64,000 nucleotides of DNA, taken from Desulfobulbaceae bacterium (GTDB lineage Bacteria; Desulfobacterota; Desulfobulbia; Desulfobulbales; Desulfobulbaceae). Each line of letters opens with the position of its first letter. Position 1 is the first letter of the stretch. Position numbers and translations under genes: made by a program. The stretch covers positions 62,001-126,000 of the forward strand of contig JAMJFO010000003.1 of the NCBI GenBank assembly GCA_023544645.1, read 5' to 3'. The notes under the pieces were generated by a model. That model made no database searches, had not been told where the DNA came from, and was given only the letters and a program-made list of their open reading frames with translations. Of the stretch, positions 28,418-30,455 are shown piece after piece.

Positions 28418-29302
28418 ATGAGTAAGATCCAGGGCGCAATTGTCGCCATCGTCACCCCGTTCATCGACGGCAAGGTGGATGAGCAGGGGTTGAAGGACCT
28501 GATCGAGTTTCAAATTGACCATGGGACCCGCGGCATTGTGCCCTGTGGGACGACCGGGGAATCGGCCACCCTTGATTTTGATGAGCACAAACGGGTAATC
28601 GAGCTGACGGTCAATACCGTTAAAGGACGTGTGCCGGTCATCGCCGGAACCGGCGCCAACAATACCCTCGAGGCCATTGAGTTGACCGAAAGCGCCAAGG
28701 CCAGCGGCGCTGATGCCACCCTGTCGGTGGTGCCTTATTATAACAAGCCGAGCCAGGAAGGGTTGTTCCAGCATTACAAGGCGATTACCGAAGCCGTCGA
28801 CATCCCGGTTATCCTGTACAACGTGCCAAGCAGGACCGTTACCAACATGCTGCCGGCCACGGTTGCCCGGTGCGCCAAAGAGCTGAAGAATATCATCGGC
28901 ATCAAGGAGGCGACCGGCAGCCTCAACCAGATCAGCGAGGTCATTCGGCTTTGTCCCGATGATTTCATAATTCTTTCCGGCGATGATTTTACCGCCATGC
29001 CCACGGTTCTCATCGGGGGCCAGGGCGTGATTTCCGTGACCTCCAACGTTGAACCGCGGGGAATGGCCGAAATGATGGAGGCGGCGCTGGCCGGAGACCT
29101 TGAAAAGGCTAATTTTCTCCATTACCGGCTTTTTCCCCTGATGGGGGCCATGTTCTGCTATCCCAGCCCGGCTCCGGCCAAGAAGGCCCTGGAGCTCATG
29201 GGCAGAATTCGTTCTCCCGAAGTAAGGCTGCCCATGACCTCCATGGATAATGACAGCATAGATGTTTTGAAAAAGATCATGCATGAGGTCGGCCTGATCT
29301 GA
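28418..29302 (+). CDS. dapA: 4-hydroxy-tetrahydrodipicolinate synthase
   Basis: Condenses pyruvate with aspartate semialdehyde, the entry step of the lysine branch. In 294 residues the TIM barrel shows GTTGESATL, the Tyr in ILYNVPSRT and the Schiff-base lysine in IIGIKEATG. AGGAGG lies upstream of its ATG. It is followed by a 340-bp non-coding stretch before dapB. Confidence 0.96.
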   Translation: MSKIQGAIVAIVTPFIDGKVDEQGLKDLIEFQIDHGTRGIVPCGTTGESATLDFDEHKRVIELTVNTVKGRVPVIAGTGANNTLEAIELTESAKASGADATLSVVPYYNKPSQEGLFQHYKAITEAVDIPVILYNVPSRTVTNMLPATVARCAKELKNIIGIKEATGSLNQISEVIRLCPDDFIILSGDDFTAMPTVLIGGQGVISVTSNVEPRGMAEMMEAALAGDLEKANFLHYRLFPLMGAMFCYPSPAPAKKALELMGRIRSPEVRLPMTSMDNDSIDVLKKIMHEVGLI

Positions 29303-29500
29303 ACGGCGGGTGATTAAAGGAAAATAAAGGAAAATTTTTTTGCCATGGAATTTGCCATGCCCGTTTATCGGTAAACGTACACCCGGCAAGGCAACCACCA
29401 GTGGTGCTTTTACCAGCAGTTCTGCACGGTGCCTGCTGATTGCGTACTTTTATTGTTGGTGAACTCGCAGAAAGTCCATCACATATTAAACGATAGCTAA
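29303..29500. other. Non-coding spacer between dapA and the long palindrome
   Basis: No gene or recognised riboswitch. Small features: a direct repeat TTTGCCATG (29338-29358) and a CGTTTA/TAAACG hairpin (29362-29377). Lysine-riboswitch core sequences are not seen. Confidence 0.6.
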
Positions 29501-29611
29501 GTAAAAAATTCGATGTACAAGGAATAGTGGTGTCGGCCAAGCGGAGGCGTACATATGTTACGTCGAGCATTGGCCGTACCCGCTATGACGCAGTAGATCG
29601 GACTTTTTACG
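29501..29611. repeat. ~110-bp imperfect palindrome in the dapB leader
   Basis: The outer arms GTAAAAA-TTCGATGTAC (from 29501) and GTAGATCGGACTTTTTAC (to 29610) are near-perfect inverted copies. Inner arms CGGCCAA..CGTA and TACGTCGAGCATTGGCC also pair, around a central CATATG at 29552-29557. The centre of the outer arms agrees with the central CATATG to within a base. This looks like a mobile or extragenic palindromic repeat unit, not a gene. It ends about 30 bases before dapB. I have the impression that similar sequences recur in Desulfobacterota genomes, but could not check. Confidence 0.8.
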
Positions 29612-29642
29612 ACGCCATCATTGTTTATAACCGGAGAAAATA

Positions 29643-30455
29643 ATGACACGAGTAATCGTTGCAGGTGCTGCCGGCCGGATGGGTCAGCGCATCAGCTATA
29701 TGGTTCATACCAATCCCGGCCTTGAGCTGGCGGCCGCCTTTGAACATCCAGACAGCCCTGCGCTGGGACGTGATGTCGGAGAGAACTGCGGGGTCGGCGC
29801 TATCGGCGTTGCCATCTCCCCGGGCCTGGAGTCGGTGATCGATCAGGGAGATGTGATCATTGATTTTACCTTTCATGAGGCAACCATGGAATTCGCGGCC
29901 ATTGCCGCCAAACATGGGCGGGCCATGGTCATCGGAACCACCGGCTTGACCCGGAAAAATCTAGCTGAGCTCCGCAGGCTGGCGCAAGGTAATTTTCCCT
30001 GTGTGCAGGCGCCGAATATGGCTGTGGGCGTGAATGTTCTGTTCAAGCTGGTTGAAAAAACAGCGGCAATTCTGGGAGATGCATACGATGTGGAAATCGT
30101 TGAAGCCCACCACCGCATGAAAAAAGACGCTCCTTCCGGAACAGCGCTCAAGCTGGGCGAAATGGCTGCCGGGGCTTTGAACCGCGACCTCGCCCAGGTC
30201 GGAGTATATGAACGTAACGGCATCATTGGAGAGCGAACAGACAATGAGATTGGTATCCAGACCATCCGGGCCGGTGATATTGTCGGTGAGCACACGGTGT
30301 ACTTTGCCGGCGCCGGTGAACGGATCGAGATTACCCATCGGGCTCATAACCGGGATAATTTTGCCCGGGGCGCGACGCTGGCTGCCGGATGGGTTGCGGG
30401 AAAGCCCAACGGCATGTACACAATGTTCGATGTCCTCGGGCTGACCGATTTCTGA
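29643..30455 (+). CDS. dapB: 4-hydroxy-tetrahydrodipicolinate reductase
   Basis: Reduces the DapA product with NAD(P)H to tetrahydrodipicolinate. The Rossmann motif VAGAAGRMGQRIS is at the N-terminus, GTTGL follows, and the catalytic signature EAHHRMKKDAPSGTA lies near residue 155. With 270 residues it is complete. GGAG lies upstream of the ATG and just downstream of the ~110-bp palindrome. Confidence 0.96.
   Translation: MTRVIVAGAAGRMGQRISYMVHTNPGLELAAAFEHPDSPALGRDVGENCGVGAIGVAISPGLESVIDQGDVIIDFTFHEATMEFAAIAAKHGRAMVIGTTGLTRKNLAELRRLAQGNFPCVQAPNMAVGVNVLFKLVEKTAAILGDAYDVEIVEAHHRMKKDAPSGTALKLGEMAAGALNRDLAQVGVYERNGIIGERTDNEIGIQTIRAGDIVGEHTVYFAGAGERIEITHRAHNRDNFARGATLAAGWVAGKPNGMYTMFDVLGLTDF

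Follow-up and report, generated by a model that had tools for sequence, protein, structure and literature searches.

What is the palindrome of about 110 bp that separates dapA from dapB in a lysine operon whose genes otherwise stand close together? The window, as the whole analysed stretch of 64,000 nucleotides is called here, carries this operon in the order lysA-dapF-dapA-dapB, and each of the four genes exceeds its NCBIfam cut-off. The genes lysA and dapF overlap, dapF and dapA are 44 bp apart, and it is because of this tight packing that the 340-bp spacer between dapA (28418..29302, plus strand; TIGR00674, 361.7 bits) and dapB (29643..30455, plus strand; TIGR00036, 310.2 bits) is unusual. 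We hold with considerable confidence that a MITE, a non-autonomous DNA transposon, probably mobilised by an IS1182-like transposase, lies between the two genes, with an effect that is most likely modest at best.

The palindrome in its operon

An earlier note on this DNA had described a palindrome of about 110 bp with a CATATG centre and no T tail, about 30 bases from dapB and behind a spacer of about 200 bp in an otherwise tight operon, and this description has been confirmed. The palindrome at 29501-29610 is real, with arms GTAAAAAATTCGATGTAC.. and ..GTAGATCGGACTTTTTAC around the centre at 29552-29557; 198 nt separate it from the dapA stop (29302) and 32 nt from the dapB ATG (29643), and a terminator scan of 29200-29700 gave no T-tail terminator. 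The extent given in that note stands for the palindrome only, since the full unit comprises 162 bp (29458-29619), plus target duplications, and is both larger and asymmetric because its left end has an extra terminal hairpin at 29458-29480.

The RNA of 29495-29620 has a predicted fold of -53.8 kcal/mol, which none of 200 dinucleotide shuffles matched (mean -31.7, sd 3.3; z = -6.6). The palindrome is imperfect, it was not picked up by an exact-seed inverted-repeat finder, its local arm-alignment score is nothing exceptional within the window, and its raw folding energy ranks only 69th of 3042 there, because the window is GC-rich. Therefore, the case has been built on the evidence for repetition and insertion and not on the hairpin. 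The same spacer also holds a second dispersed repeat, unrelated to the first, at 29385-29414 on the minus strand (GGTAAAAGC-N7-GTGGTTGCCTTGCC), which occurs at six genomic places with up to three mismatches, the reversed control giving none.

Ends, copies and target duplications

A search with the palindrome stretch found about 16 near-complete and about 14 partial copies in the own genome. Several copies stop at contig ends, as is expected where an assembly would break in a repeat. The aligned copies share their start and end bases, which lie beyond the reported palindrome (left end GATGGACTCGTAAAAAGTCCATC, right end ..GGACTTTTTACGACGCCATC), and the complete copy in the window, at 29458..29619 on the plus strand, is delimited by the same bases at which the roughly 16 near-full copies end. 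Its terminal inverted repeats (TIRs) are about 19 bp long, with outermost GATGG..CCATC. The right TIR occupies 29601..29619 on the minus strand (reverse complement GATGGCGTCGTAAAAAGTC); the TIR pattern GATGGNNTCGTAAAAAGTCC has 73 matches in the own genome at up to two mismatches and the reversed control pattern has none. The left end consists of two tandem TIR-like units, an outer hairpin and an inner GATGGCTAAGTAAAAA, a layout that recurs in other species. In the window copy, alignment of the copies places the left TIR with its outer hairpin at 29458..29480 on the plus strand (GGTGAACTCGCAGAAAGTCCATC, decayed relative to the family sequence GATGGACTCGTAAAAAGTCCATC) and the inner unit at 29492..29510 on the plus strand (GATAGCTAAGTAAAAAATT). 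The palindromic core, supported by folding and by covariation across species, spans 128 bp (29492..29619). The element has no transposase gene, and only a 97-aa antisense frame overlaps part of it. The own genome also holds a second subfamily, whose members are 155 or 185 bp long and have ends with TCGCAAAAAGTC.

The window copy is flanked by the exact direct repeat ATTGTT at 29452..29457 and 29620..29625 (both given on the plus strand), and the same 6-bp pattern is found at other copies. An exact duplication of 6-7 bp accompanies 17 of the 22 full copies in the own genome and 81 of 134 distinct elements from the own and other genomes, being 6 bp long in 72 and 7 bp in nine. Of the 72 6-mers, 70 begin with A and 70 end with T, the consensus being AANNTT, and random re-pairing of flanks of the elements from other genomes gave duplications in 1.9% of cases. 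In about 40% of the distinct elements an exact duplication is missing, for which decay, mis-paired ends or another mechanism are the alternatives.

Comparison of dapA-dapB spacing, as the earlier note had advised, revealed gaps of 36-77 bp in the other congeneric genomes, and no relative examined has the TIR in this gap. Since these spacers are short and free of the TIR, the dapA-dapB copy is a lineage-specific insertion. Two relatives (L115 in G016 and L129 in G030) have long dapA-dapB spacers with a different repeat, CTGRATCCGTGAGCGTTCG ... CGTCACGGATTCAG, so that the gap has been struck by repeats more than once.

The TIR is present in 23 of the 37 genomes searched (the own genome and relatives), with 1 to 75 sites each, and a scan of species genomes gave at least 117 stretches with it; among the matches listed, the titles that name a group refer to Desulfobacterales, Desulfobulbaceae, Syntrophaceae and other Deltaproteobacteria or, less specifically, to Proteobacteria/Pseudomonadota. 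The likeness to related genomes that the earlier note had mentioned is thereby borne out: the sequence is multicopy both at home and in other Desulfobacterota, clearly not the single copy with arms unconserved in relatives that would have spoken against it. Convergent TIR pairs are less than 400 bp apart in 93 of 99 cases. Composite transposons were considered for the long pairs in other genomes (1.2-4 kb), which enclose ordinary genes such as those for a sigma factor, TsaD and a hydrolase, and were rejected, as these pairs are neighbouring copies. Matches to the TIR also occur on nine IMG/VR contigs classed as viral (L251-L259), three of which (L256, L258 and L259) have the flank gtatctaaattt in common. 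At L217, L191 and L251, the same or single TIRs flank other palindromic repeats (GTCATTGCGAG.., GTCATTCTGAG.. and GTCATTC..GGATTCCGG..), which suggests nested or swapped cores.

A candidate transposase and the rival agents of dispersal

Because of the TG..CA termini, transposases of the rve type (IS3/IS21/IS481) were suspected at first; their loci lack these ends. In the own genome, the IS1634-type transposase (L283) and the remaining PF01609 loci lack them as well. Among the PF01609 matches, a locus of G020, a genome of the same family as that of the window, holds a transposase fragment followed by TGATGGACCAGTAAAAAGTC. This transposase (L284) is closest to IS1182 (NF033551, PF13751), and it was used as the query of a phylum-wide search for related transposase loci. 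One of the loci, L299, is an intact insertion sequence (IS) that has a frame of 624 codons and both ends, with AATCTT as an exact duplication; L295 and L298 likewise carry the two ends, with a single mismatch in the duplication, and L296 has both ends and is directly adjoined by a 154-bp TIR element. Altogether the TIR stands in end orientation at 14 of 17 IS1182-like loci vs 0 of 56 control loci of other transposases. NF033551 is by far the best family for the transposases of L299 and L296, and its E-value for the partner transposases is about 1e-47; with 163 and 155 bits, respectively, these two do not reach the curated cut-off of 270 bits, and the partners are therefore named only 'IS1182-like'.

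Genomes with such an IS are often rich in elements too, with 88 TIR sites in G253, 84 in G190, 23 in G042 and none in G186 and G143. Many elements of G190 terminate in exactly the sequence of the IS end there, GATGGTTTCGTAAAAAGTC. Beyond about 19 bp, IS and element no longer match, which means that none of the IS copies seen would give the element by a simple internal deletion. The draft genome to which the window belongs, an assembly of 153 contigs, several of which break inside copies, yielded no IS with such ends, and the more distant NF033551 matches in the 37 relatives lack the ends, except for the G020 fragment. The contig of the window begins, outside the window (G000, C87:11-223), within a fragment of an IS1182/IS5-type transposase that lacks the ends in question.

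Shared TIRs, a duplication of fixed length, a size below about 500 bp without a transposase gene, dispersed copies and an empty site in relatives are what characterises a MITE, and all are found here, the autonomous elements with the same ends being the IS1182-like ones elsewhere in the phylum. Of the options left by the earlier note, the small mobile unit is thus the one upheld. That the same MITE was moved by another transposase, its shared 19 bp being due to convergence or borrowing, is improbable: no IS carrying these ends was found in the draft genome and the likeness is confined to the termini, as such a history would have it, but the association with IS1182-like loci and not with the controls, the identical ends within G190 and the duplication of the intact IS, of the same length and AANNTT pattern, all argue against it. 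Much less credible still is a REP/BIME-type extragenic palindrome spread by a RAYT (Y1 tyrosine transposase), the link that the earlier note had raised. The element shares with REP/BIME sequences its intergenic position, its palindromy and its many copies (PMC3733652), and the own genome has three weak Y1_Tnp matches; however, none of the Y1 loci has the TIR, and G020 has 75 TIR sites yet no Y1_Tnp match, so that no Y1 gene is tied to the repeats. REP units are GTAG-tagged hairpins of 20-40 bp (PMC3733652); the units found here measure 100-200 bp, are bounded by TIRs and are flanked by target duplications, a DDE-type signature. An attC/integron site and a riboswitch were also considered; neither has an Rfam match, the scan of the window returning only a tRNA elsewhere and nothing on the element, and the dispersed copies with duplications speak against attC.

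For the MITE, the current model proposes that an IS1182-like transposase, supplied in trans, would have bound the element ends, cut out or copied the element and inserted it at ATTGTT in the dapA-dapB gap, presumably after the lineage had split from its nearest relatives. The insertion would lengthen the transcribed leader by 168 bp, which may form a strong hairpin. The window copy looks old, and it is probably immobile now, because its left end has decayed and no transposase with these ends was found in the draft genome.

The core, dapB and known relatives

In 12 divergent elements the core stays paired though the arm sequences differ between species: changes on both sides were counted in 44 cells, whereas the shuffles gave 13.0 and none of the 500 reached 44. 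No slid version of the pairing exceeded 18 such cells, a comparison in which the fold, derived from the same alignment, is favoured over the slides. This covariation reflects either a selected hairpin or arms that correct each other by template switching, and such arm-to-arm copying explains it equally well. That selection maintains the core for its folded structure, in DNA or in RNA, with a part in mobilisation or in the control of host genes, is a rather doubtful proposition. If it were true, the elements would be separate, phylum-wide structured passengers with acquired IS1182-like ends, and not the remnants of IS deletions.

It could be argued that the hairpin is a regulatory RNA of the lysine operon, acting as an attenuator or as an mRNA-processing or stabilising signal for dapB. 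Its strong predicted fold, its position 32 nt ahead of dapB and a stem that covaries across species would agree with this. A parallel is also offered by the Gmet_R1005 family of Geobacter metallireducens, a 'predicted short RNA element' that is palindromic at its centre, intergenic and present in 24 copies, one of them between dapAB and dapL in a lysine operon (PMC2700814). We regard such a role as very unlikely, since the relatives examined lack the element at dapA-dapB, the same sequence recurs at unrelated places in the own genome, neither a terminator nor an Rfam family was found, and the covariation tracks the element and not the lysine operon. A conserved regulator of dapB is excluded, because the insertion is absent from relatives; a local effect of this copy is possible. 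An intrinsic terminator would have a GC-rich stem and then a run of U; the element has no such structure, and neither a promoter-like nor a terminator-like site was detected within 29200-29700. The likely ribosome-binding site of dapB, GGAG at 29633..29636 on the plus strand, lies outside the element and stays unpaired in the fold predicted for the spacer. With this site outside the element and no recognisable terminator, the operon is most likely still read through, and the stability or translation of the dapB mRNA would be changed modestly at most.

No earlier report of this element family was found in the literature searched, a scope that leaves out most subscription journals and ISfinder, and the family is apparently undescribed, although of an ordinary kind. 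The Gmet_R1005 palindrome, GRCGTA..TACGCC, resembles the cores described here, a likeness by description only; in contrast to the element, that family is described as RNA, with no TIR or target duplication in the part of the source available (PMC2700814). The Chunjie MITE of Geobacter uraniireducens (Chen et al. 2008), as far as it is covered by a review (PMC10969869), is likewise similar by description only, with TIRs, direct repeats and tens of intergenic copies. Its host was once grouped with the same deltaproteobacteria and the title of the original report speaks of operon insertion without disturbance, but its length is 178-235 bp vs the 162 bp found here. The likely partner is closest, with scores below the curated cut-off, to the transposase family IS1182, which includes IS1272 of staphylococci. 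IS1272 is reported to replace stem-loop targets and not to make ordinary target duplications (PMC5678879), unlike the element, which makes a 6-bp AANNTT duplication.

With this analysis, a repeat that is scattered over many Desulfobacterota genomes, and that breaks their assemblies, gains exact ends, an AANNTT target rule and a likely source enzyme. It also calls for caution, as intergenic palindromes in the biosynthetic operons of Desulfobacterota can be copies of a transposon and not regulators.
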